Assembly (NCBI RefSeq): GCF_030531065.1
Contig: NZ_JAUNOQ010000004.1
Location: 62,001 to 126,000, forward strand
Direction: 5' to 3'
Length of the DNA: 64,000 bases
DNA from: Phascolarctobacterium sp.
GTDB lineage: Bacteria > Bacillota > Negativicutes > Acidaminococcales > Acidaminococcaceae
The notes beneath the pieces are model-generated. The model did not search any database. It was not told the DNA's origin and saw only the letters and a program-made list of their open reading frames with translations. This document shows positions 33,570-44,973 of the stretch, piece by piece. Made by a program: the position numbers and the translations under genes. Numbering within the stretch: position 1 is the stretch's first letter; each line of letters begins with the position of its first letter.

Positions 33570-33860
33570 TTAGATAACATTTTTATGTCAGCTAGCTGAC
33601 ATTTAAAAACGCCGCAAACCCGCATGGTTGAGCCTTAGCTAACAAGCTAACGTAATTTGGCGATAGGGTGCGTATATTTTATAGGGTAATTACGCTTTAG
33701 CTTAATTGATGCTTCCATACGAGACACCTTATTTTGGTTAGCTAATGAAAAATGTTAGCTAACTTATAAAAATAATGCGTGAAAAGCGCATGGTTAAGCC
33801 GTTTTTGCTTAGCTAACATTTTGGGTGGTTTAGCTGACATTTCCCGAAAAATGTCAGCTA
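33570..33860. repeat. Iteron-like cluster, candidate phage replication origin
   Basis: This 300-bp gap has no gene. It holds many copies of the core (T)TAGCT(A/G)AC(ATTT) in both orientations: an 18-bp perfect palindrome at 33585-33602, and copies at 33635-33643, 33645-33651, 33738-33745, 33751-33763, 33809-33822, 33830-33842 and 33850-33860. A second repeat CGCATGGTT(A/G)AGCC occurs at 33621-33634 and 33788-33801. The region is AT-rich and lies directly downstream of the primase-helicase gene. Confidence 0.75.
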
Positions 33861-36457
33861 GATTTCGGCGACACTACCAGAGCAACGTAATAAGAGCGCA
33901 CTTTACTAAAGGTATACGCTGCGTAATATCGCCCGTTCACCTTTTTTAAATGGCCGTTATCCACCCATTTTTTCTTGACGGCATTAAACTCAAAATTTTT
34001 CTTCCGTAACTCACGTTCCAGAATTGATTTATTTATATAAACAATCCCATCGTCAGTATTGATACGTCCCCAATAAGCGCGGCCTTCCCAGTCGCGTATT
34101 TCAGTATCAAAGAACTCCTGGTTTTCGGAGATTACGGACACGATGTAGCTAAAAGCACGTTCCGATACGTCTACTTCGGCTTTGCTCTTAACTACCTTCA
34201 CGGCGTCCTCAATGCTCAGCCAAAGGCCGTCCTTAAAAATATAGCGCGCGGCTATTATATCGGCCATAATTATCAAGGCCATGGCCATAGCCTGCTTTTC
34301 GGTGGTATCGGTCTGTTCCAATACCTGCCGCATAATATTCTGGTAATCCGTTGCCAGGGCTTCATTGGCTAAGGCTTCCACGAAAGCCTTGCCGGCGCAG
34401 CCGTAATGGCTGCCGATAAAATTGACCACCGCGTTACCGTCGGCGACAATTTTTTCAAAGCACTCTATCTCGATGACGCGGTTGATAACGCCGCCACCGG
34501 ATTCCGTGCTTGTACAAGGTTCTTCACCTGTAAAAATAAAGTTATTATACCAGGAGCGCTGCTTCTGAATTTCTTTACCGCTGTTCATGCGGCCGCGATC
34601 GATGCCTTCAGCAATCCGCATAATGAGCTTGTCATATTCGTTGCCGATATTGGTCTTAATCGTCTGCAGCTCGTCGCCGAAGAACGGGATATTACGCAAC
34701 ACTGCCGCCGTGCTCATCATGGCGTTAGCGGTAGTGTTCATAGTGCGCATGAGCTTACCCTGCGCAGGGTTGCCCCAGATGCTGGCCGCCGTCATAGCTG
34801 CTACTGTTTTGCCGGAACCCGTACCGCCCCATAAATGCAAGACGAACGGCAGCGCTTTAACACGCTCAATAAGTACCGACGCAAACGAAGCAGCCAAAAT
34901 AAACTGCATATACTTGTTTTTCCTGAGCGGGCTTACATATTCTACCCACTCTGTAAGCGTACCTTTTTCCGTTACGCTTCTGATCAGCGGCTTGTATTCC
35001 TGCTCGCAGTCCAGGCTTATTTCATCGTCATACGGCACAAAGCGGCTGCCGACCCAGCCCATGTGGTCTATAGATTTTGACCTTGGCAGAATATCAGGGT
35101 TAAGCGCAACTGCCGTCGCTATGTACTTGACCAGCTGCGCCGCGTTTTCGCTGTTGACCTCTATGCCGTAATCGGCAAGGTCTAAAATCCTATTTTTATT
35201 GGCAATTTTGCTCCTAGGTATAACGATTGATTCCCAAGCGCCATTGCGCTCATAAGCTATACGGATTTTTTCCGTACCGTCCTCCATATTCTGGAGTATT
35301 TCCGTTGGCATAATCGGTGTCGGCGAAGCGTATTCGTTACGCAGATTGTCGCCCTGCTGTACCGTGCGGTACACGCCGTTCTGTCCGGTACGCCATTCGC
35401 CGCATCTTAATTTGAACGGCTGGCCTTTAAAATTGGTCATGTTTTCCGACCTGATACCTTTGGCGGTCTGTGCTTGTGCAAAGGAGCGCCAGCAGGAGTC
35501 GAAGTCGCGGCGGAAATTAAGCGCTCCCGCCCTGATCCGCAGCGACGTTAAAATTTTCTGTCTCGCATAAGGTTCATTGATAGCGTATACAGCATCCAGC
35601 AGCTTATCGTCTATCAGACTGTTGCGGTCCAGTTGGCCGATAAATTCGTCGTCCAGTTTAATTTCTTCCGGCCATTTATAGCTGCTGATTTTTTCAGGAT
35701 CGCCGCCCTGTTCAAAATAATCGGCCACGTCGCCCTTTTCCGGACACTCCGGCCAGATATCCGTAAGCTTTAATACTTTGACATCACGCCAGGCGTTGAT
35801 ATAATCTTTGCCTTTGGCGTCGTTGTCGCCAATGACAACTTTTGCAGTAAATTTATCCAAATACTGCCTGTCAACAGCGCTAAGCTTAATATTTTTCTGG
35901 GCCCCGGTATTGGTAGTTGTGGCCAGCAGTCCGTGCTTAACCATAGCGTCGGCGCACTTTTCGCCCTCAACCAGGTATAACACCGTGTCCGGCGCCGCCT
36001 GCTCCAGCAGGTGCAGATTATAGAGATTATTACAGTTTTCGGGTTTGGAATAACGCTTGTTACCGGTACCGTCCATAAACTCAAAGCCAAAGACCTTATG
36101 GCCATCAGCCCATTTTCTGCGGCGTTTGCGATAAGCTTCGCTGCCGTCAGGATTGGTATAGATATGGTAATAATCCTCCATAGGCTTGGTGCGGGCATAA
36201 TCAATTTTAGGCTTAGGCTCCGGAGGTCTAGGCTTAGCTCCCAGCCTGCGCCACTCCCTGAAAAAATCTGCTCCCTGCGCATTACAACGCTGGCAGTAAA
36301 CCAGTAATTTATCGTTTTTTACAGAGATATATAAATGCCCTTGCTTATGGCATAACGGGCAGTCAGCTACAATCTGCCCGCCCTTTTGCTTTGGGTTTAC
36401 TAAATACGGACGAATATCGTCAAGCGTCAGTCTCCCGCCATCAGAACGGGAGATCAT
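33854..36457 (-). CDS. DUF927 primase-helicase
   Basis: An 867-residue replication protein. N-terminal CHC2-like zinc finger (CPLCHKQGH...CQRC, residues 34-60), a TOPRIM-like region (VLYLVEGEKCADAMVKHGL and VVIGDNDAKGKDY, about 157-215), then the DUF927 ATPase domain with Walker A GGTGSGKT near residue 545 and FFGDELQT as the acidic box. C-terminal winged helix. Such fusion proteins prime and unwind phage or plasmid DNA. The iteron cluster abuts its 3' end. Confidence 0.9.
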   Translation of the reverse strand: MISRSDGGRLTLDDIRPYLVNPKQKGGQIVADCPLCHKQGHLYISVKNDKLLVYCQRCNAQGADFFREWRRLGAKPRPPEPKPKIDYARTKPMEDYYHIYTNPDGSEAYRKRRRKWADGHKVFGFEFMDGTGNKRYSKPENCNNLYNLHLLEQAAPDTVLYLVEGEKCADAMVKHGLLATTTNTGAQKNIKLSAVDRQYLDKFTAKVVIGDNDAKGKDYINAWRDVKVLKLTDIWPECPEKGDVADYFEQGGDPEKISSYKWPEEIKLDDEFIGQLDRNSLIDDKLLDAVYAINEPYARQKILTSLRIRAGALNFRRDFDSCWRSFAQAQTAKGIRSENMTNFKGQPFKLRCGEWRTGQNGVYRTVQQGDNLRNEYASPTPIMPTEILQNMEDGTEKIRIAYERNGAWESIVIPRSKIANKNRILDLADYGIEVNSENAAQLVKYIATAVALNPDILPRSKSIDHMGWVGSRFVPYDDEISLDCEQEYKPLIRSVTEKGTLTEWVEYVSPLRKNKYMQFILAASFASVLIERVKALPFVLHLWGGTGSGKTVAAMTAASIWGNPAQGKLMRTMNTTANAMMSTAAVLRNIPFFGDELQTIKTNIGNEYDKLIMRIAEGIDRGRMNSGKEIQKQRSWYNNFIFTGEEPCTSTESGGGVINRVIEIECFEKIVADGNAVVNFIGSHYGCAGKAFVEALANEALATDYQNIMRQVLEQTDTTEKQAMAMALIIMADIIAARYIFKDGLWLSIEDAVKVVKSKAEVDVSERAFSYIVSVISENQEFFDTEIRDWEGRAYWGRINTDDGIVYINKSILERELRKKNFEFNAVKKKWVDNGHLKKVNGRYYAAYTFSKVRSYYVALVVSPKSS

Positions 36458-37001
36458 CGTTAAACGGTACGTTAGTACCAGCCGACGGCGCTGCCGGAGC
36501 AGACGGTTTTATCTGAGCCAGCTTATCCGCCGAAAGCTTCTTCAGCGCCGGCACCTTGAAATCACCCTGGCGAATCTTGGCGCCCGCACAGCATTTCACG
36601 GCTTTAAGACTGATACGCACCTCGTTATTTTTATTCAGATATTCTTCTTCACCAAGAATAATGCCGATGAACATGCCTTTAAGCTGCTGCTCGTTGCCGT
36701 CGAACTTATCCGCTACGAAATTACGGTTACTTTCTTCTACCGCCTGCAAGAACCCCTTAAACATACCGCGGGCCTTTTCCGTGTACGAACGGTACATAAT
36801 GGGATAATCGATTTTGTAGTTATCGCGACGCCTTTGGTAAAAACCTTTCCACTCGCCATCTACTATATCGTAGTAGACTTTCAGGTATTTTTTCGCAGGT
36901 ACATCCTCCACATCCATAATGCGGCAGATATAGCCGCCTGGCGTCGGCTGCGCAAAATCATCGTCCTGCGCCTGTACACTGCTCCAATTAAATTTTTCCA
37001 T
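36441..37001 (-). CDS. DUF669 protein (single-strand DNA-binding-like)
   Basis: A 186-residue protein matching the DUF669 pattern: GGYICRIMDVEDVPAKKYLKV, YDIVDGEWKGFY, and a C-terminal disordered tail ending FNDDLPF, the acidic tip typical of SSB proteins that recruit partners. It is next to an AAA ATPase and the primase, as in other siphoviruses. It overlaps the primase start by 17 bp. Confidence 0.82.
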   Translation of the reverse strand: MEKFNWSSVQAQDDDFAQPTPGGYICRIMDVEDVPAKKYLKVYYDIVDGEWKGFYQRRRDNYKIDYPIMYRSYTEKARGMFKGFLQAVEESNRNFVADKFDGNEQQLKGMFIGIILGEEEYLNKNNEVRISLKAVKCCAGAKIRQGDFKVPALKKLSADKLAQIKPSAPAAPSAGTNVPFNDDLPF

Positions 37002-37004
37002 CGT

Positions 37005-37640
37005 TTATTCCTCCTTTGCTTCATCCTGCCGAGCATTCCAGCCGTAATATTCTCTAATAGCTGTATCAACCAGCTTCAGGTCGTTGTCTATTTTAGGTGG
37101 GAACATATCCATGGGCGACTTGGCCGTGGTGAAGCCGTCGCTCTGGGTAATGAACCAATGGTCTTTACCGTCGGTTTCTGCCAGCAGCACGATACTGAAC
37201 AGGCCTTCCAGCGTCAGCTGATTATCCAGCATCTTGCCACTGGTCTTGGCCTTTATCCGGCCATCGTCAGCCTGTTCCGTATGATGAAGCAGATAAACGA
37301 CTGTGTCCTCGCTGGTGCGCTCACGGATAAATTTCAGCATATTATAAAATGCTAAAGCGCAGTCGGTAAATTTTGCATACCCGACTTCTTTTGCCCTGTC
37401 GAACAGGCTGAAAGCCATCAGATATTGGCTATCATCAATCACATAGCATTTCAGCGTATTTCTGCCCAAAACCTCAAGAATACGGTTATAATCCGCAGTA
37501 TTTACCAGCTTGAGTTTTTTACGAAATGGCAAAGGCTTGCCGGCCACGTTAAATACGCCTATCTCGGACGGCTCAAAATTGCGCAGGGAAGTGGATTTAC
37601 CGCTCCCCGACGCGCCTAAAATTAATACAGGCGTTCCCAT
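37005..37640 (-). CDS. Phage AAA/RecA-like ATPase
   Basis: A 211-residue P-loop protein: GASGSGKST at residues 9-17, Walker B-like CYVIDDSQYL around 65-74 and a sensor VVYLLHHTE near 125. It belongs to the group of Sak4/RecA-like phage annealing or recombination ATPases that pair with DUF669 proteins. It follows Gp157, precedes DUF669. Confidence 0.8.
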   Translation of the reverse strand: MGTPVLILGASGSGKSTSLRNFEPSEIGVFNVAGKPLPFRKKLKLVNTADYNRILEVLGRNTLKCYVIDDSQYLMAFSLFDRAKEVGYAKFTDCALAFYNMLKFIRERTSEDTVVYLLHHTEQADDGRIKAKTSGKMLDNQLTLEGLFSIVLLAETDGKDHWFITQSDGFTTAKSPMDMFPPKIDNDLKLVDTAIREYYGWNARQDEAKEE

Positions 37641-37650
37641 CAGGCACCTC

Positions 37651-38148
37651 CTACTTAATCTGCAAATTCTGCTTGGCCACCAGCTGGCATCCGTCTATTA
37701 CGATACCCGCCTTTAACGCTGCTTTTAACTTAGCTTTATCCGGCTCCGGCTCCTTAAAACGCAGATAATCGTCAGCCAGCGCGCTAACGTCGTTTACTTC
37801 CACCACTTCGGACGCGCGCCAGCTGAGTTTTACTCTGGCAGTTTCAAATTTTTTGCCGTCGAAGTACTTAGCGAAAAAGCCCGCCAGGTACTCTTTACAG
37901 CGGGCAGCCTCGCTTTCATGGCTTTTGGCACGTTCAGCCAGCTTCTTAGCTTCTGCCTTGATGGCCTCGGCTCGGGCCAGTTCATTCTTGATATACAGCG
38001 CCAGATTTTCTAAACGCTGGTCGCGCGTCATTTCCATACATTCAAACTCGTCGAGGTCAAGAATTTCCCCGGTATCGGTGTCCACTACGCGACCGTCACC
38101 GGTTTTAATGCAGGCTTCCAGCTGCTCGGATAATTCATACAGGTTCAT
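37651..38148 (-). CDS. Siphovirus Gp157-family protein
   Basis: A 165-residue helical protein with the Gp157 pattern: MNLYELSEQLEAC, a long Lys/Glu helix (RLENLALYIKNELARAEAIK), 'AAR.KEYLAGFFA', and the C-terminal domain with KLSWRASEVVEV. First described in Streptococcus thermophilus phages, linked to phage resistance; the biochemical role remains unclear. It overlaps the 99-residue gene by 14 bp. Confidence 0.85.
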   Translation of the reverse strand: MNLYELSEQLEACIKTGDGRVVDTDTGEILDLDEFECMEMTRDQRLENLALYIKNELARAEAIKAEAKKLAERAKSHESEAARCKEYLAGFFAKYFDGKKFETARVKLSWRASEVVEVNDVSALADDYLRFKEPEPDKAKLKAALKAGIVIDGCQLVAKQNLQIK

Positions 38149-38434
38149 TGACCGGCGCCTCCTTTACAGCTTCTAATTCGCTAGGCACTACTAACTGAAT
38201 AGGCGGCCTGGATTTATACATTAACGTCCAGATTTCAGATGCAGCAAAGTCAACCGCCTTGGCAGCTTCCTGCATGGCATTGCTCATATCCATCAGTAAA
38301 TCGGCAATGCCTTCATCGCAGTCGCCATAGTTTATAAGTTCACTCATCTGGCGATGCAGGCTCTTCATCTTTTTGAGCTCAATCTTAATGATATTCAGCT
38401 TGCCGCTAGTCTTGGTCATTGCAAAATCGTTCAT
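38135..38434 (-). CDS. Small helical early protein, unknown
   Basis: A 99-residue protein, mostly helical (LNIIKIELKKMKSLHRQM) with an acidic C-terminus. I do not recognise it. Coupled to the Gp157 gene by a 14-bp overlap and 2 bp from the previous gene. Confidence 0.55.
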   Translation of the reverse strand: MNDFAMTKTSGKLNIIKIELKKMKSLHRQMSELINYGDCDEGIADLLMDMSNAMQEAAKAVDFAASEIWTLMYKSRPPIQLVVPSELEAVKEAPVNEPV

Positions 38435-38436
38435 TC

Positions 38437-39045
38437 TTATTTCGTCTCCTTTTCTAAACTCAAAAGTTCGGTACCAATCTCCAGCATATCCACGGCTGTA
38501 TCGATATTGTGGTCAGCCAGCCATCTGCTGCAAGCGGCGTCCAAATCACAGCGCACCTTTTCCTGCATCTTAGTGCGAAGCATCTGGACATATTCTGCCT
38601 GCAGTTCCTTCTCCGCCTCCAGCTTCAGCCGGTCATGGTAGTCCAGGTTCTTTTTCACAATGTCATCTACCTTGGCATCCAGCTCCACGTCGCGAGGTTC
38701 GGCTTGAGGGTCATAACAAATATTGTCAGGTACCGGAATTGCGTTAAGGTCAACTACCTCAAGCTCTTCAGCAGACGCTTCATCGACGGTCACAGCGGCG
38801 CCGATCTCTTCTTTCTTCGCTTCAGCATTTTGTTCATGCAAGGCGTCGGCCTTCATCCTGTTGATATCGCCGATTGAGCAGCCAAGCACTCTGGCCAAGC
38901 GCTGCTTGTTCGCGTCGCTCAGATTGCCGGTCCTTTTGCAGCTGACCTGCGCATTAGTGCTGACACCGGCCGCCGTAAACAGCTTAGTTGCACTTTCAAA
39001 ACCTTTTTCTTTACCTGCTTCAACTAATTTTTCAAAAAAGTTCAT
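38437..39045 (-). CDS. Early phage protein with N-terminal HTH-like region
   Basis: A 202-residue protein from MNFFEKLVEAGKEKG (GGAGG 9 bp upstream). The first 60 residues read like a helix-turn-helix (ESATKLFTAAGVSTNAQVS, LARVLGCSIGDINRM); the rest is acidic and helical. It may be a DNA-binding regulator of the early genes. Not assigned to a family. Confidence 0.55.
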   Translation of the reverse strand: MNFFEKLVEAGKEKGFESATKLFTAAGVSTNAQVSCKRTGNLSDANKQRLARVLGCSIGDINRMKADALHEQNAEAKKEEIGAAVTVDEASAEELEVVDLNAIPVPDNICYDPQAEPRDVELDAKVDDIVKKNLDYHDRLKLEAEKELQAEYVQMLRTKMQEKVRCDLDAACSRWLADHNIDTAVDMLEIGTELLSLEKETK

Positions 39046-39059
39046 GGTTAACATCCTCC

Positions 39060-39392
39060 TTACATCTTGTCTAAAATCAGCCTGATTTCCCTGCCGACTG
39101 CTATCCGTTCATTGTAGGTAGCCTGGTTGCGAAAATCCTGCATATAAATCTCTATCATTTCCTGATAAACTTCTTGTTTAAAGCTCCGCTCACTATTTTT
39201 GAACGGTTTTAGCACCGTAATGCTGCGGTCAAGGTTGATTTTAATAAATCCCCTGTCCTTCAGCCGGTATCTATTGGTTTCCACGACGGCCGGAGTAGTG
39301 TCGCCCATTATTTCAGCGATTTCCGTATCCGTCGCGTGAGGATTAGCGGCCAGCAGTTCATAAATTCTGCTGATTTTGCTTTGCACAGCCAT
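39060..39392 (-). CDS. Winged-helix early protein
   Basis: A 110-residue protein whose first 70 residues form a winged-helix pattern (KISRIYELLAANPHATDTEI, TTPAVVETNRYRLKDRGFI). Ribosome site GGAGGTG. It is a probable DNA-binding regulator. The promoter of the small plus-strand RNA overlaps its first codons, so the two transcripts diverge and may interfere. Confidence 0.65.
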   Translation of the reverse strand: MAVQSKISRIYELLAANPHATDTEIAEIMGDTTPAVVETNRYRLKDRGFIKINLDRSITVLKPFKNSERSFKQEVYQEMIEIYMQDFRNQATYNERIAVGREIRLILDKM

Positions 39393-39420
39393 TTACACAC
39401 CTCCAAAATTATCGTATAAT
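39392..39420 (+). promoter_or_regulatory. Promoter of a small plus-strand RNA
   Basis: TTTACA, a 17-bp spacer and TATAAT, opposite to the early operon. Confidence 0.7.
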
Positions 39421-39426
39421 GAAGGT

Positions 39427-39492
39427 GAACCTACTGGAAATAAGTTCACCTTTTCAGAGCGCGCTGATATTGCTGTATCAACGCGCTTTTTT
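39427..39492 (+). ncRNA. Small RNA antisense to the early operon (OOP-like)
   Basis: A transcript of about 65 nt from the promoter at 39392-39420. An inverted repeat AAGGTGAAC / GTTCACCTT (39422-39452) spans its start, and it ends in a strong terminator: AGCGCGcTGATA pairs with TATCAaCGCGCT around TTGCTG, followed by TTTTTTC. No open reading frame is present. It is antisense to the spacer and the end of the zinc-knuckle gene. Size and orientation recall lambda OOP RNA. Existence is inferred from signals only. Confidence 0.55.
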
Positions 39493-39618
39493 CTTGCGCT
39501 TTTTCCGCCGCTGCTTTGCGTTTTCTGCGTCGCATACCGGGCAAGTATACGGATAGCGGCGGCAGTGACTGCTGACGATGTATTCCCGCCCGCAGATAAA
39601 ACATATTTCTTTACGCAT
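39478..39618 (-). CDS. 46-residue zinc-knuckle protein
   Basis: Starts MRKEICFICGREYIV and contains C-x2-C ... C-x2-C (FICGRE, CPVCDAEN) plus a very basic end (RRKKRKKKAR). I use the ATG at 39618, next to the end of the LysM-like gene; the longer frame to 39687 overlaps that gene. Its stop lies in the terminator stem of the antisense RNA. Probably nucleic-acid binding. Confidence 0.55.
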   Translation of the reverse strand: MRKEICFICGREYIVSSHCRRYPYTCPVCDAENAKQRRKKRKKKAR

Positions 39619-39619
39619 T

Positions 39620-39961
39620 TTAGAACGCCGGCAACAGCGTCGACAGCAGTACCCAGCCGCGTTCTTCTGCCGCTTCCTTGATTTCAACTTCCAGCGGTAT
39701 TACCAGCACGTCGCCCGGCTGTATAGAGTAGTTGTTCAGCCCGTTACGCTTGCCGATTTCGTACATCAGCTCCCGGACGTCCCGCGTTCTATCCTGCTCA
39801 GGCAGGTATTTGGTAGCAATGCCCCAAACGGTCTGCCCGGCAGCCACAGTATGATAGCGCTGTTCAGCAGCGTACTTCACGCCGCGCCCGCCGGTAACGA
39901 ATATCATGGCTGCCAGCAGCGCTGCGATAACCAGGAACACCTTCGCAGTTTTCATCAGCAT
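39620..39961 (-). CDS. LysM-type membrane-anchored protein
   Basis: A 113-residue protein with an N-terminal transmembrane/signal segment (VFLVIAALLAAMIFVTGG) and a LysM-like domain: YHTVAAGQTVWGIATKYL, then NGLNNYSIQPGDVLVIP. LysM binds peptidoglycan. Such YneA/SOS-like proteins in early phage operons may inhibit host division or modify the envelope during lysogeny or infection (inference). Ribosome site GGAG 9 bp upstream. Confidence 0.78.
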   Translation of the reverse strand: MLMKTAKVFLVIAALLAAMIFVTGGRGVKYAAEQRYHTVAAGQTVWGIATKYLPEQDRTRDVRELMYEIGKRNGLNNYSIQPGDVLVIPLEVEIKEAAEERGWVLLSTLLPAF

Positions 39962-40368
39962 TGTGATTCAGCTCCTTTCAACTCTACCGGGTCTCCCTCG
40001 GTATAATCCTTTCCGGACGCGCCGGCCAAAAACTCATCCAAATCTTCGTTCCGTACCAGAACACGCCCAATCCTAAAAGCCTTTAAATACCCCTTATGGA
40101 TAAGCTTGCGGATTCGCGGCGCAGTAGTTTGCAGTATTTCGGCAACCTCGTCCACGTTGTAAACCTTTCGCTCCACAGATTTCACCACCTTAAATTCATT
40201 AAGACAGTTTTGTAACTGCCTGATAAATTCCATCTTGTCCCAGCCCTCTAACTCGCAGACTTGTATGTCGAATAATATTTCGCTATACATGCGGGTTATA
40301 AATTGATGACGGGCTAAATCGTTCAGCTTACGACGTTCTTCAACCGTCATCGGAGCCAAGCCCGTCAA
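39955..40368 (-). CDS. Excisionase-family helix-turn-helix protein
   Basis: A 137-residue protein. The C-terminal half has the MerR/excisionase pattern VYNVDEVAEILQTTAPRIRK followed by LIHKGYLKAFRIGRVLVRNE. The N-terminal half is helical and acidic. It may be the phage Xis or an early regulator; excisionases bind next to integrase arm sites, and those are present at both ends. It overlaps genes on both sides by a few bases. Confidence 0.68.
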   Translation of the reverse strand: MTGLAPMTVEERRKLNDLARHQFITRMYSEILFDIQVCELEGWDKMEFIRQLQNCLNEFKVVKSVERKVYNVDEVAEILQTTAPRIRKLIHKGYLKAFRIGRVLVRNEDLDEFLAGASGKDYTEGDPVELKGAESQC

Positions 40369-40538
40369 CGTAAATCCTCGTGCGTAAACTTAATACCGGT
40401 AACGCGCTGGTTGATAAAATCCAGCTTTGCTTCCTCACTCACGTTTACGATACCGCTATACAAATGACGCGCAAAGCGTAATGCCTGCTCTTTTGTTACC
40501 GTATGCCAACCGCTTATCAGCGGCTTAACCCTTATCAC
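40365..40538 (-). CDS. Small early protein, unknown
   Basis: About 57 residues. I prefer the GTG at 40538, 9 bp after GGAGG, over the GTG at 40547 which abuts it. The sequence has GWHTVTKEQALRFARHLYSG and ends HEDLR. It overlaps the next gene by 4 bp. Not recognised. Confidence 0.5.
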   Translation of the reverse strand: MIRVKPLISGWHTVTKEQALRFARHLYSGIVNVSEEAKLDFINQRVTGIKFTHEDLR

Positions 40539-40696
40539 GTTTTTCACCCTCCTTCTACAACTCCTCCACCCTGCACCCCAGCGCCGCCGCCAGCGAACGT
40601 CAGCGCTGCCTCGCTTGATGTTTTTATTCCATACGCCCCTTCTCCCGTGCTAAAATATAAGCGTCACCAAAAATCAAACAAAGGAGCTGAACATTT

Positions 40697-41005
40697 ATGG
40701 ACTCTGGTCAAAACGCTAAAGAAGTATATCAGACCATCATGAACGATATACACGATGCAGAAAATAATTTAGCTGAAGGATACGATTTATATGTATTCTT
40801 ATCAGATTACCCTAACATTGAAATAACTACTATCGGCCGCCGCGGCGATCATCTCTTATTTTTTGAAGGCTGCGTCGGGCAAAGTCAGAAAACTCATTTT
40901 CTAATTCATTATTCCAAAGTATCGCTTCTGATTGTAGAAAAGAAGATTGAGCCTGCTCCTGCATACAAGCCAAAGCGTAAAATTGGATTCGTTGTAAAAG
41001 TATGA
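40697..41005 (+). CDS. Unknown plus-strand protein
   Basis: A 102-residue protein with AAAGGAG before the ATG and an extended -10 (TGCTAAAAT) about 40 bp upstream. It reads as a small alpha/beta protein (MDSGQNAKEVYQTIMNDIHD; IGRRGDHLLFFEGCVG) ending in basic residues. It faces the early operon. A competing minus-strand frame covers 40830-41087. Function unknown. Confidence 0.5.
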   Translation: MDSGQNAKEVYQTIMNDIHDAENNLAEGYDLYVFLSDYPNIEITTIGRRGDHLLFFEGCVGQSQKTHFLIHYSKVSLLIVEKKIEPAPAYKPKRKIGFVVKV

Positions 41006-41193
41006 TATTCTCATTTATTTCCTCAAGAATCACTAAAATATCTTGATTTTTGCTTTCTCTCTCTGCATCCTCTTGCACCACTCTCACCCCCTCCTCTCAA
41101 GCTTATTAGGCAAAAAGCTTTCTCAACAAGCTTTACCTTCATACCTCCATAACCTGTGCTATAATGAAAGTACAGATTGGAGGTGAAAATACC

Positions 41194-41538
41194 ATGAGAA
41201 CTAACTACGAATTATGCAGAAAAATTTTAATTGCTATAGCTGACGCCGATATCCATACTGATGTTTCAAACTACAATATCTGCCAAGAGGAACATCCTGA
41301 TATCATAGGTTGGCATATAGGAAAACTTATAGCTGAAGGATATGTAACCGCCATCGATGCTAGAAGTAAAGACGGCCAATTTGATTATATTTGCGTAGAA
41401 TTAACGCCTTCAGGTGAACGCTTTCTCAATAGTATTGAAAACAACAATCGCTGGACTAAAGCTAAACAATATTTACAAGACAACGCACTAGAAATTTCAT
41501 TTAGAGCTATTGAAATTGCCGTTAAACGCTTTTGCTAA
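41194..41538 (+). CDS. DUF2513 family protein
   Basis: A 114-residue protein from the ATG at 41194 (TTGGAGGTG upstream); an extended -10 TGCTATAAT lies about 35 bp before. The pattern MRTNYELCRKILIAIAD, then IIGWHIGKLIAEGYVTAIDA and ELTPSGERFLNSI is that of DUF2513, a winged-helix-like family common near phage repressor genes. It probably regulates transcription. Its 3' end overlaps the convergent minus-strand gene by 42 bp. Confidence 0.82.
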   Translation: MRTNYELCRKILIAIADADIHTDVSNYNICQEEHPDIIGWHIGKLIAEGYVTAIDARSKDGQFDYICVELTPSGERFLNSIENNNRWTKAKQYLQDNALEISFRAIEIAVKRFC

Positions 41539-41769
41539 TTTAAATTCATCCATAATCAATTCATCAAATACTTCATAAAGTTTGCTAATCAGATCTCGAT
41601 TTCCACCAGGAATATTTCTGAGTTCTTTATCAAACCTTTTCTTTGCTTCGATATAGGCAGCTAAGCGTTGTAACGAAAACTCTGGTAAAGGCTTATCTTG
41701 TCCCAGAATACCTACATCACACGTACCCTTATAATTGGCTGCCGTAAAGATAAATTCACATTGACGCAT
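41497..41769 (-). CDS. Small early protein after Cro
   Basis: A 90-residue protein from MRQCEFIFTAANYKG (41769; AAGGGGGTG upstream). It has an alpha/beta start and a helical end (DLISKLYEVFDELIMDEFKL). It is separated from the cro-like gene by an inverted-repeat-rich spacer. Not recognised. Confidence 0.5.
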   Translation of the reverse strand: MRQCEFIFTAANYKGTCDVGILGQDKPLPEFSLQRLAAYIEAKKRFDKELRNIPGGNRDLISKLYEVFDELIMDEFKLAKAFNGNFNSSK

Positions 41770-41797
41770 CCCGCACCCCCTTTCAAGCTTATCAAAC

Positions 41798-41822
41798 AAG
41801 AGATTGTCAAGGACAATCTCTT
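41798..41822. terminator. Perfect 11-bp hairpin downstream of cro
   Basis: AAGAGATTGTC, loop AAG, GACAATCTCTT. On the plus strand TGTTTT follows; on the minus strand GTTTGAT. It may attenuate rightward or leftward transcription between cro and the next early gene. Confidence 0.5.
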
Positions 41823-41825
41823 TGT

Positions 41826-41864
41826 TTTACTATAACCATGTTATAGTAAATCTAGTATACTAGA
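41826..41864. promoter_or_regulatory. Two adjacent palindromes after the cro-like gene (operator)
   Basis: TTTACTATAAC-cat-GTTATAGTAAA (41826-41850), directly followed by TCTAGTATACTAGA (41851-41864). The second is the same palindrome as in the CI/Cro control region, so it is a second repressor operator; the first may be another regulator's site. Confidence 0.75.
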
Positions 41865-41866
41865 TA

Positions 41867-42058
41867 TTATGCGTGTAAAAAGTCCGACACATTGCACTGC
41901 AATACTCTTGCCAGATTTTCCAACGTGCTAATTTTTACTTCAACTTCCTCGCCGCTCTCTATTCTAGAAATCGTTGCACGAGTAACGCCCGCTTTCTTTG
42001 CCAATTCAGCTTGCGTAATACCATTTTTATGTCTTATATCTTTCAATTTGTAAAGCAT
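41867..42058 (-). CDS. Cro-like XRE repressor
   Basis: A 63-residue helix-turn-helix protein covering a full XRE domain: IRHKNGITQAELAKKAGVTR, ATISRIESGEE, then LENLARVLQCNVSDFLHA. It is the first gene of the leftward early operon and diverges from the CI-like gene. It would favour lytic growth by repressing CI (lambda logic). Confidence 0.88.
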   Translation of the reverse strand: MLYKLKDIRHKNGITQAELAKKAGVTRATISRIESGEEVEVKISTLENLARVLQCNVSDFLHA

Positions 42059-42084
42059 TTTAGTAACCCCTTTCTTTGTTCTTA

Positions 42085-42152
42085 GTCTAGTATACTAGAC
42101 CATTTTATCTTTGTCAACTGTATTTGACAACTTACTGCTAATCATGTATAAT
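42085..42152. promoter_or_regulatory. CI/Cro divergent control region
   Basis: Minus strand: TTGACA (42112-42117 complement), 17-bp spacer, TATACT (42089-42094 complement) drives cro. Plus strand: TTGACA (42124-42129), 17-bp spacer, TATAAT (42147-42152) drives the CI-like gene. The 16-bp perfect palindrome GTCTAGTATACTAGAC (42085-42100) covers the cro -10, so binding would block early transcription while leaving the CI promoter free. Confidence 0.9.
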
Positions 42153-42182
42153 ATGCTATACAAGCACTAAGGATGTGATTAT

Positions 42183-42584
42183 ATGAATATTGGAGAATTT
42201 GTATTTCAATATCGGAAAGAGCACGGACTATCTATGCAAGCATTTGGTGATTTATGCGGGTTAAGCAGAGCTTATATTTCAATACTAGAAAAAGGTATAA
42301 ATCCTACTACCGGAAAAGCATTCATTCCAACGATAGAAACATTAAAAAAAATTGCTGAATCCACCAATTCAAATTTAGATAGCTTATTAGCCATGCTAGA
42401 CGGTTCTCAATCAGTAATTTTAAATTCCTTGATTCCTATTGAAGTAACACCTACCGAAAAAGAGCATATAAAAAAATATCGCCAGCTGGACGCTGACGGC
42501 AAGGAAGAAATCGACGATATCATAGATGTAAAACTCGCCAAGCTCCAGCGCAAAGCGGAAGCAGAAGAAGCGAACTGCGGTTGA
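42183..42584 (+). CDS. CI-like prophage repressor (XRE)
   Basis: A 133-residue protein with an N-terminal XRE domain (MNIGEFVFQYRKEHGLSMQA, FGDLCGLSRAYISILEKG, ETLKKIAESTNSNLDSLLAM) and a short C-terminal helical part (EKEHIKKYRQLDADGKEEID). It has no LexA-like S24 peptidase domain, so induction cannot be by classical RecA-stimulated self-cleavage; an antirepressor or another route is needed. It diverges from cro. Confidence 0.87.
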   Translation: MNIGEFVFQYRKEHGLSMQAFGDLCGLSRAYISILEKGINPTTGKAFIPTIETLKKIAESTNSNLDSLLAMLDGSQSVILNSLIPIEVTPTEKEHIKKYRQLDADGKEEIDDIIDVKLAKLQRKAEAEEANCG

Positions 42585-42649
42585 GAGTGAAATAAAAAAT
42601 CGTCTTTCACAAAAAACGCTATTTTTGTAAAAGACAAACGGGAGGAAAT

Positions 42650-42787
42650 ATGTTATACGAAAGCCTTACGAAAATTTATTATAAGGACGAAAAGAACCAT
42701 TATAAAGAATATCAAAAACGCTATAATGCGCCATTCGCTTTTCACCTTAATGTTTTAATCAAACAGTATAACAACATAACGAAATGA
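42650..42787 (+). CDS. 45-residue basic protein after the repressor
   Basis: Starts at ATG 42650 six bases after GGAGG. Reads MLYESLTKIYYKDEKNHYKE with a Tyr/Lys-rich middle and FHLNVLIKQYNNITK at the end. It follows an imperfect hairpin (42602-42636) downstream of the CI-like gene. Not recognised; possibly a remnant of a longer gene. Confidence 0.45.
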   Translation: MLYESLTKIYYKDEKNHYKEYQKRYNAPFAFHLNVLIKQYNNITK

Positions 42788-42841
42788 TATTATACTATAC
42801 AATACTTCTACCATAAGTTCACATTTTTTACACATATTGTG

Positions 42842-42870
42842 TTGACAATCAAGGACTAATCGTGTAAAAT
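42842..42870 (+). promoter_or_regulatory. Promoter of the NYN gene
   Basis: TTGACA, a 17-bp spacer and TAAAAT. Independent of the CI promoter, so the cargo gene can be expressed in the lysogen. Confidence 0.75.
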
Positions 42871-42876
42871 AAAGTT

Positions 42877-42988
42877 TACAAAGGAACTGATAGTTCCTGT
42901 TATATGCTAATAACGTCCTTGGTAGTAAGTCTCCCTCTGATATGGGAAGTACCGAATCCAGGGACATTTTAATTTTGGAGGAAATTTT
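42877..42988 (+). ncRNA. Structured 5' leader of the NYN-domain gene
   Basis: About 110 nt untranslated. Hairpin AGGAAC-tgata-GTTCCT (42882-42898) is followed by an 8-bp stem GTCCTTGG (42915-42922) with CCAGGGAC (42958-42965), enclosing GGTA/TACC and TCCC/GGGA pairings. No terminator is seen. It could be a cis-regulator, or a guide/inhibitor RNA for the adjacent nuclease. The fold is hand-drawn. Confidence 0.45.
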
Positions 42989-43678
42989 ATGAAGGTCGCA
43001 ATATTTGTAGATGGCGGATTCTACCGTAGGCGTTCTCAGTCTGTTCTAGGCGATATTACTGCTGAAGAACGAGCCAAAGAATTAGAAACTTATTGTCATA
43101 GGCACTTACACAAAAGCAAAGGTAAGGATAACTGCCGTGAGGTAGAACTATATCGTATTTTCTACTATGACTGCCCACCAATGGACAAAAAGATCTATCA
43201 TCCACTTCTAAAAAAGCAGGTTGATTTTTCAAAAACAGAGCTTTTTGTTTGGTCCAATACTTTTTTAGATGAATTAAAAAAGAAACGTAAATTTGCTCTC
43301 AGACTTGGAAAACTTGCTGATGCACAAGCTCATTACTCTCTTAAAGAAAAAAGTTTACGAGCACTATGTAACGGAAAAATTAAATTTGAAGACCTCACTG
43401 AACAAGACTTTATTATCAATGTTGATCAAAAAGGTGTAGATATGAAAATAGGTATCGATATCGCTTCTTTAGCCTATAAAAAACAGGTTGACCAAATAGT
43501 ATTGATCTCTGGAGATAGTGATTTTGTTCCAGCAGCTAAATTAGCCCGTCGTGAAGGTATTGATTTTATTTTAGATCCTTTAGGTGCACCTATAAAGCCT
43601 GATTTATTTGAACATATAGATGGTTTGCGTTCCTGTGATAAAGCATACGTTGAACGCATACAAAAACAACAGCAATAA
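42989..43678 (+). CDS. NYN-domain (PIN-like) protein, prophage cargo
   Basis: A 229-residue protein with the NYN/LabA layout: AIFVDGGFYRRR at residues 4-15 (first Asp), KGVDMKIGIDIASLAY around 149-164 (second Asp pair) and VLISGDSDFVPAAKLARREG at about 172-191 (third acidic box). NYN domains are metal-dependent RNases. It is AT-richer than the structural genes, has its own promoter and leader, and lies between repressor and integrase, the typical place for lysogen-expressed cargo such as superinfection defence (inference). Confidence 0.88.
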   Translation: MKVAIFVDGGFYRRRSQSVLGDITAEERAKELETYCHRHLHKSKGKDNCREVELYRIFYYDCPPMDKKIYHPLLKKQVDFSKTELFVWSNTFLDELKKKRKFALRLGKLADAQAHYSLKEKSLRALCNGKIKFEDLTEQDFIINVDQKGVDMKIGIDIASLAYKKQVDQIVLISGDSDFVPAAKLARREGIDFILDPLGAPIKPDLFEHIDGLRSCDKAYVERIQKQQQ

Positions 43679-43754
43679 AAAAGCCCCCGGCGTTACCAGC
43701 ACCGGAGGCCGCGGCAGTGTTACCAGCACCGCCAATCGTCCATAGTTCCACCAT

Positions 43755-43790
43755 AGGACAGCAATATTATACCCTAAAATCTGCTGTCCT
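43755..43790. repeat. Inverted repeat upstream of the integrase gene
   Basis: AGGACAGCA (43755-43763) and TGCTGTCCT (43782-43790) flank 18 bp of AT-rich DNA that contains TATTATA. It may be an operator of the integrase promoter or a hairpin. Just upstream (about 43693-43731) GTTACCAGCACCG occurs twice as a direct repeat. Confidence 0.55.
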
Positions 43791-43824
43791 GACAAATAAA
43801 TTTATATTCAGGAGGTAGATTATT

Positions 43825-44973
43825 ATGCGAGGTTACGTCAGAGAATACCGCCCCGGCAAATGGTCCTATACCATTTACGTCGGCAAAAATGAAAAAGGCA
43901 GGCCAGTAAAACAGGAAAAAGGCGGCTTTGCCACCAAAAAAGAAGCCGAAACAAATCTTGCTCTTAAAATAGCCGAATATATGGAAACAGGTGCAGTTTT
44001 CGTCCCCAGCTCTTTGACGTTCGACGAGCTGTATAAGGAATTCTTGGAAAAAGACGCCAGGGTATCGCGACGCCCGCAGACAATCCGTAAATATGACGTT
44101 ATGTATAAATATCATATCAAAGCTTCTCTAGGCCATCGCTTTATCAAAACCATTAAAACCAAAGACATCAACACCATACTCACAGCTATGGTAAACAAAG
44201 GCTATTCGCAAAGCTATGTAATGAGCGCTTATAAAACTCTACGCGTCACCTTCCAGTACGCCCTGGACAACAGATATTTGAAAGTCGACCCAAGCAGCGG
44301 CGCAACGTTGCCCAAAGAAGTAAAGCCTCCCATCGAAGTCCTTACTACCGAACAAATCAGCAAGCTCAAAGAGCTGCTTGGCAACAGCAACTGCTTACTG
44401 CCTTTTATGATCGGGATTTATACCGGCTTGCGTCCGGCTGAAATCGTCGGGCTGCGCTGGCGCGATATAGACCTCAATAAAAAGACTATTCACGTACAGC
44501 GGCAATTAAAGCCGGAAGTCAAACATTATGCCTTGGACAAAGTAAAAACCGCCGAATCTGACCGCATAATCAAAATAAACGATACGCTGGCCAACTACTT
44601 AAAGACGGAAAAGACTCGACAGCAGGAAAACAAAGAGATTGCCGCTGAATTTTGGAAAGAGAATAAGGTATACAGCTATTTCGACAAAAAAGTAATTATC
44701 GTTCCTGACTTCGTGAATATCAAAGCTGACGGAGAATGCCTGAACGGCAGCTCTCTAAAATACATCGGGCGCGTAGCAAAAAAAGCCGGTATCCCCTTTC
44801 ACCCATACATCATGCGTCACACGCACGCCACAATGCTCATAGAAAACGGCGCCAGCCTGAAGCTTGTGCAGCTTCGCCTGGGGCATACCAAAGCGACTAC
44901 CACCTTGCAAACCTACAGCCACGTTACGCCTATACACGAAAACTCCATTATCGACGCGCTGCCGGAGTTCTAA
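43825..44973 (+). CDS. int: Tyrosine-type phage integrase
   Basis: A 382-residue recombinase with an N-terminal arm-binding domain (residues 1-55), a SAM-like core-binding domain (62-150) and a catalytic domain (170-375). Catalytic residues: R203 in TGLRPAEI, Y328-x-x-R331 in YIMRHTHAT (the usual first His of the H-x-x-R box is Tyr here), H354 in LGHTKA and nucleophile Y364. GGAGG precedes the start. It is next to attR with three ATCGGACA repeats directly after its stop. It integrates the phage into the rubrerythrin gene. Confidence 0.95.
   Translation: MRGYVREYRPGKWSYTIYVGKNEKGRPVKQEKGGFATKKEAETNLALKIAEYMETGAVFVPSSLTFDELYKEFLEKDARVSRRPQTIRKYDVMYKYHIKASLGHRFIKTIKTKDINTILTAMVNKGYSQSYVMSAYKTLRVTFQYALDNRYLKVDPSSGATLPKEVKPPIEVLTTEQISKLKELLGNSNCLLPFMIGIYTGLRPAEIVGLRWRDIDLNKKTIHVQRQLKPEVKHYALDKVKTAESDRIIKINDTLANYLKTEKTRQQENKEIAAEFWKENKVYSYFDKKVIIVPDFVNIKADGECLNGSSLKYIGRVAKKAGIPFHPYIMRHTHATMLIENGASLKLVQLRLGHTKATTTLQTYSHVTPIHENSIIDALPEF

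Follow-up and report, generated by a model that had tools for sequence, protein, structure and literature searches.

A Candidate Antisense RNA Gene in a Prophage Early Operon

Does a promoter closely followed by a terminator, both directed against the early operon of a prophage, make up a gene for a small regulatory RNA, or is it a chance pairing of common signals? The question is raised by a locus in a 64,000-nt stretch of a Phascolarctobacterium sp. genome (contig NZ_JAUNOQ010000004.1, positions 62,001 to 126,000; hereafter the window). The putative promoter combines the -35 hexamer TTTACA (39392-39397, plus strand), which overlaps the first base of the neighbouring gene, with the -10 hexamer TATAAT (39415-39420, plus strand) at a spacing of 17, giving 11 of 12 consensus matches. 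The extended -10 TG found in most relatives is missing: the window sequence is ATCGTATAAT and not the full form TGTGNTATAMT, and a good -35 takes its place. An intrinsic terminator follows on the same strand (39457-39492), composed of a hairpin at 39457-39488 with the apical loop UUGCUG and a U-run at 39487-39492. The hairpin is predicted at -18.1 kcal/mol, a stability reached by 0 of 200 shuffles. The predicted antisense RNA is about 67-70 nt long (39424-39493, plus strand), with a presumed start at 39424-39427 and a likewise presumed end, and carries the traits of the family described below, namely UUUU ahead of the hairpin, the UUGCUG loop and six U. Every plus-strand open reading frame listed at the unit has its start no later than the last base of the -10 hexamer, so that none starts inside the predicted RNA. 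In these respects the original prediction of a consensus promoter and a strong plus-strand terminator with no open frame between them was confirmed, as was the opposition of the unit to early transcription, both flanking genes being on the minus strand.

The next gene downstream in the operon (39060-39392, minus strand) encodes a 110-aa winged helix-turn-helix (wHTH) regulator of phrog_633, whose ATG lies 23 nt from the antisense -10; the predicted RNA leaves the ribosome-binding site of this gene uncovered. Upstream in the operon is a 46-aa Cys-rich, zinc-knuckle-like reading frame (39478-39618, minus strand), whose 3' end shares about 16 nt with the antisense RNA and which found no match in Pfam or PHROG. 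A LysM-domain reading frame (39620-39961, minus strand) stands farther upstream, and HTH genes likewise precede the unit in the operon. The block behind the unit includes genes for a Mu Gam-like end-protection protein (37651-38148, minus strand) and, by their PHROG labels, a Sak4-like single-strand annealing protein (37005-37640, minus strand) and a primase/helicase (33854-36457, minus strand). Judged from the window genes and their PHROG labels, the unit is located at the boundary between small regulatory genes and the recombination/replication block. A search of the window with Rfam 15 returned no family at or above the gathering threshold at the unit, and only a tRNA elsewhere. The DNA from 38435 to 40400 had no match in phages and the window wHTH protein none in phage records, where the wHTH protein of the related locus L049 gave one weak match.

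Antisense Units Recur in Related Early Regions

A single site of this kind proves little, because promoter-like and terminator-like matches are common: the interval 36000-44000 holds 19 promoter-like sites against 15.7 expected, which is no enrichment, and 14 terminators against 7.5 expected. Relatives were therefore gathered through the wHTH protein, and both strands were scanned for a promoter and then a terminator. The 23 non-redundant loci compared with 12 rounds of dinucleotide shuffles, each locus spanning up to about 4.7 kb, contain 22 antisense units, against 0-3 per shuffle round, and 4 sense-strand units, against 0-3 in the shuffles. The strict form, with the extended -10, occurs 14 times in antisense and twice in sense, against 0-1 in the shuffles. 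At least one antisense unit is present in 18 of the 23 loci. No clear early-operon unit was found near the wHTH gene in L046, L055, L069, L070, L075 and L076; L063, missed by the scan, entered the element list by eye. On these comparisons the antisense mini-gene looks like an overlooked common control device and not a chance pattern.

Two associations with neighbouring genes were considered and rejected. Relative to the wHTH gene, the unit is upstream in the window and L049-L054, downstream in the Veillonella group and elsewhere in other loci. The Cys-rich reading frame accompanies the unit in many loci, but not in L048, L049, L053 and L054.

Distribution and Position across the Class

A covariance model, R1, was built from an alignment of 18 elements, the window element among them, so that window scores are circular for this model and for the later model R2. 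Of 380 genomes of the class, 74 contain an R1 match at E<=0.01 (the E-values are rough). We fetched a subset of all listed matches, 71 further places made up of 31 strong and 40 weak ones. Early-operon units of phage type were recognised at 29 of the strong and 23 of the weak places; the remainder comprises integrase-side units, host genes, duplicates and unclear cases. L135 and L140 were dropped from the element set among the strong places, and L151, L152, L153, L157, L158, L159, L161, L162, L166, L170, L173, L174, L175, L179, L181, L182 and L187 among the weak.

Family members sit close ahead of a start codon, at the border of the recombination/replication genes. Counting the seeds, 71 elements were compared for orientation: in 47 of them both neighbouring genes run antisense to the unit, and in none do plus-strand genes lie on both sides; the other 24 have at least one antisense side, the opposite side being uncalled or bearing a plus-strand ORF call. 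The distance from the -10 to the next start codon is narrowly distributed, with a median of 23 nt and a 10-90% range of 17-38 nt (48 measurable of 71), and is 23 nt in the window. In the relatives, the stop of the upstream gene ranges between -75 and +242 nt relative to the terminator end. The proteins encoded downstream are diverse: comparison of 20 with PHROGs identified RecE-like exonucleases (3), Mu Gam-like proteins (2), SbcC-like or related ATPases (2) and a primase (1), together with 6 of other or unknown families and 6 without a match. Rfam searches of the relatives' elements found no family at or above the gathering threshold.

Some matches lie outside phages. Seven of the 71 fetched places are in host genes of similar build (L135, L140 and L187 in a PTS operon, and L151, L152, L153 and L157), and L173, L174, L175, L179 and L181, plus L196 from the wider sample described below, also look chromosomal. 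At L135, L140 and L187, which represent two or three genomes, the antisense unit sits between two genes of the non-phage PTS operon, which we take to be of the galactitol type. L151, L152, L153 and L157 share a conserved short promoter-terminator unit (GTAAGTTAAATTTACCCCTCATTTG...) on host chromosomes of the window's bacterial family. In the Veillonella-type phages L042, L043, L044, L045 and L065, a reading frame with the peptide KVYHI overlaps the antisense promoter. As an alternative to conservation of this peptide across the promoter, conservation at the DNA level is tentatively preferred: between L064 and L047 the peptide is frameshifted and the DNA kept.

Extension to Other Bacillota Phages

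The second covariance model, R2, was built from 58 elements, again including that of the window. At E<=0.001 it matched 13 of 249 genomes in a wider sample of the phylum, own genome included; of 11 wider-sample loci inspected, 10 are antisense in phage-like early regions, the exception being L196. A smaller sample of 41 genomes of the phylum yielded no match except in the own genome. Named phages carry the element as well: 315.3, where it lies between cro and xis (E 2.3e-6), 315.1 (2.5e-5), Javan23 (2.5e-7), ANDSL2_ph1 (1e-8), MM1 (2.1e-4) and phi11 (2.4e-5). TP901-1, whose predicted units lie at 5122-5042 and 12552-12484, has two matches, one ahead of the late activator (2.6e-7) and one ahead of the orf10-sak genes (1.5e-4). 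The former (L242:12484-12552, minus strand) is a unit with a UUGCCG loop placed directly ahead of the experimentally known late activator gene. R2 did not reach E 0.01 on A118, whose unit before the RecE gene was found by scan only, and gave E 0.017 on phiPaco, above 0.01.

A simple pattern of the extended -10, the loop GTTGCCGC and T6 occurs at 29 places in viral contigs, against 1 for a scrambled-loop control, and a second loop form at 7 places. Inspection by eye found the nearest calls antisense on both sides at 31 of these 36 places; two of the others have no call on one side, and L210, L227 and L236 have a one-sided plus-strand ORF call. As judged by comparison, the unit is one of a broad family carried by Bacillota temperate phages. 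Many of these phages keep the position and orientation of the unit as well as its promoter, hairpin and U tail, which bears out the predicted short, self-terminated antisense RNA gene in the style of OOP.

Signs of Selection on the RNA

The strand on which these hairpins act is a pertinent question, given that in the window the terminator hairpin is slightly stabler in sense (-18.6) than in antisense (-16.9), and that the minus-strand folds of both window hairpins are good, with added G-U pairs. Such folds suggest that the hairpins could be part of the sense mRNA, as a leader or processing element of the wHTH gene. Nevertheless, G-U pairs in 19 elements, preselected for a stable antisense hairpin, number 45 in antisense against 7 in sense, and a U-run lies 3' of the hairpin on the antisense strand only. 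On the strength of the G-U count a sense-strand structure was discarded for the family, and we find this explanation scarcely credible.

The antisense hairpin itself covaries. In 58 sequences 91.4% of cells are paired, and changes on both sides affect 167 cells against 59.0 in shuffled data; slid versions of the alignment came nowhere near these values, the alignment itself having been fitted to the structure. U makes up 47% and A 25% of the leader ahead of the hairpin. Runs of at least four T were counted in 45 of the 68 leaders, compared with 55 of 480 control gene starts. The apical loop UUGC/UGCC occurs in 35 of 63 element terminators against 51 of 601 others. This count, too, comes from elements preselected for a stable plus-strand hairpin, and it has some circularity because the loop was already built into the model, unlike the scrambled-loop pattern control above. 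The common plan of the RNA is a U-rich leader, a covarying hairpin, often with a UUGCCG-type loop, and a U tail. The promoter is conserved more than the 5' end of the RNA, and 5' ends differ among phages.

These features bear on whether the RNA is needed at all. The act of transcription alone might suffice, with the convergent promoter serving as a roadblock or source of collisions and the terminator only keeping the antisense transcript short. The tight spacing between the -10 and the next start codon would agree with this, as would a promoter conserved above the RNA 5' end, but the covarying hairpin, preferred loop and U-rich leader point to selection on the RNA, which makes an effect of transcription alone unlikely in our view.

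If the RNA is selected, it could also act elsewhere. As a trans-acting sRNA (an RNA moron), its U-rich leader, hairpin and U tail would form an Hfq-type module and its 5' end would pair with distant host or phage mRNAs. We regard this as doubtful: the 5' ends vary between phages and thus offer no shared seed, and a fixed position before gene starts is needless for trans action, even if the conservation of the U-rich leader (45/68 vs 55/480) and of the loop, and the presence of an Hfq gene in the host, speak in its favour. The unit is also found in streptococcal and lactococcal phages, whose hosts are not known to have Hfq, and the streptococcal phages weaken the case for Hfq as a general partner.

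A Second Unit before the Integrase

The same prophage contains a second antisense unit (43682-43795, minus strand), with the promoter TTGTCA-18-TATAAT at 43795-43766 and a terminator at 43710-43682. It lies between the NYN gene and the tyrosine integrase gene (43825-44973, plus strand), which it precedes, and is antisense to both. An inverted repeat of 8 bp, GGACAGCA...TGCTGTCC, extends across its -10 region. Of the 25 loci in which an integrase was matched, the window counted among them, 17 have an antisense unit before the integrase and 0 a sense unit; in 16 of the 17 the -10 falls within -85 to +14. The scan also found antisense units upstream of the integrase in 315.1, 315.3, MM1 and Javan23.

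Two observations favour cis action of the early-operon unit: its position is retained although RNA sequence and downstream gene differ, and a single phage has two units of like build, each preceding a different enzyme gene. The second unit also bears on a possible part in replication. The early-operon unit might supply a primer or activator transcript for an origin bordering the replication block, a role suggested in the past for OOP, and both its position before the recombination/replication block and its AT-rich leader would suit that role. Units before the integrase and, in TP901-1, before the late activator gene argue against it, and OOP itself is said, in the part of PMC12197685 covered here, not to act as a primer; we hold an origin role to be very unlikely.

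Comparison with Known Phage RNAs and Proposed Function

The original prediction had likened the unit to lambda OOP. The general outline holds, since both have their own promoter and terminator and lie antisense in an early operon between regulatory and replication genes; other traits set them apart. LexA-type boxes have the form GAACN4GTTC, and none was seen by eye in the window promoter, where GAAC and GTTC stand 13 nt apart. According to the portions of PMC5869508 and PMC12197685 covered here, OOP is 77 nt long (about 67-70 nt are predicted for the window RNA), overlaps the 3' end of cII by 52 nt (about 16 nt of overlap in the window), has a LexA site and involves RNase III-dependent cleavage of its target mRNA. 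Because membership fails on the overlap and the LexA box, we call the unit OOP-like in function only, and OOP would be an analogue rather than an established homologue.

Other systems show partial likenesses. P22 sar is an antisense phage RNA of 68/69 nt, as far as PMC12197685 describes it. By pairing with ant mRNA, sar prevents translation from starting there; the window RNA instead runs away from the next ribosome-binding site. The c4 RNA of P1 and P7 is made from the operon strand. It too is a phage regulatory RNA (77 nt), but one that, in the account of PMC12197685, targets the region around the ribosome-binding site in ant mRNA, and the window unit has no Rfam match. Skipping-rope RNA (RF02924) is likewise a structured sRNA family, but no element of the antisense-unit family matches it; a copy scoring 45.7 bits lies at L045:1438-1520 (minus strand), 3.7 kb from the L045 element.

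Closest to the second unit are the S. pyogenes RNAs SP119_SR034, 071, 086 and 106, which are prophage-borne, antisense, located just upstream of the integrase and of the same build. The portion of PMC6431027 covered here reports such sRNAs from dRNA-seq in four prophages and proposes integrase silencing; it describes no early-operon family or shared loop. These data show that units of this kind are transcribed in lysogens, but on the integrase side and in other phages. Prophage-wide antisense transcription is reported for an S. aureus rho mutant in PMC4818034, the part of which covered here mentions no such unit. Within the literature covered, whose scope ended short of subscription journals and supplements, integrase-side sRNAs appear in one paper and the early-operon family is described nowhere.

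On balance, it seems somewhat probable that the window unit is a prophage small RNA gene, consisting of a promoter, an RNA of about 67-70 nt and a terminator, which belongs to a family carried by Bacillota temperate phages and acts most likely in cis. Most likely the unit would hold back the genes behind it through an antisense RNA acting in cis. Leaky early transcripts made in the lysogen would run into RNA polymerase from the antisense promoter, and into the RNA itself, immediately ahead of the block's first gene; the RNA would pair with the leader of these transcripts, the duplex would be cut or blocked, and the genes behind would be kept low. Upon induction, strong early transcription would overrun the antisense promoter and outnumber the RNA. 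The second unit, of the same build, would act likewise before the integrase. We infer each of these steps, from transcription in the window lysogen through pairing, cleavage or arrest and overrun to the effect on the genes. Against cis-antisense restraint, the conserved U-rich leader and loop exceed the needs of a pure cis-antisense RNA, the predicted RNA leaves the next gene without cover at its ribosome-binding site, the window promoter is without the extended -10 typical of the family, and the window terminator is slightly stabler on the sense strand.

In a broader context, we consider it an even call whether an unrecognised family of small antisense RNA genes, conserved in RNA fold and loop, is shared by Bacillota temperate phages, each positioned to gate the recombination, replication, late-activator or integrase genes that follow; together with the integrase units these would form a general lysogen-quieting RNA layer, convergent with OOP and sar of enteric phages. 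Antisense phage RNAs have so far been mainly single cases from enteric phages; a real family of this kind would mean that a common layer of control in Gram-positive temperate phages had gone unnoticed. It would then be relevant to how lysogens are kept silent and how they switch, and would provide an RNA family ready for annotation. The proposal is directly testable in laboratory phages such as TP901-1.

Inverted Repeats at the Promoters

The predicted start site is covered by an inverted repeat, AAGGTGAAC-N13-GTTCACCTT (39422-39452, plus strand; arms 39422-39430 and 39444-39452), for which a role as operator had been suggested. The repeat is indeed present, and the operator role is disfavoured. 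In L143 and L156, from the same bacterial family, a 5' hairpin common with that of the window is retained through compensatory arm changes, the window arms GGTGAAC/GTTCACC being represented by GGTGAATC/GATTCACC and GGTGGAGG/CTTCCACC, with total spans of 27 bp in the window, 25 bp in L143 and 23 bp in L156. The repeat is better read as a 5' hairpin of the putative RNA, because its span varies while pairing is kept, whereas a repressor site would be expected to hold a constant span; a DNA-binding role of the window repeat is still conceivable.

Separately, a palindrome covers the antisense -10 (e.g., GTGAT-N6-ATCAC or GTGCT-N6-AGCAC) in L048, L050, L052, L053, L126, L129 and L132, and is a possible repressor site. 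The window also has a perfect palindrome, GTCTAGTATACTAGAC, at 42085-42100 between divergent repressor genes, which is likely a phage operator.
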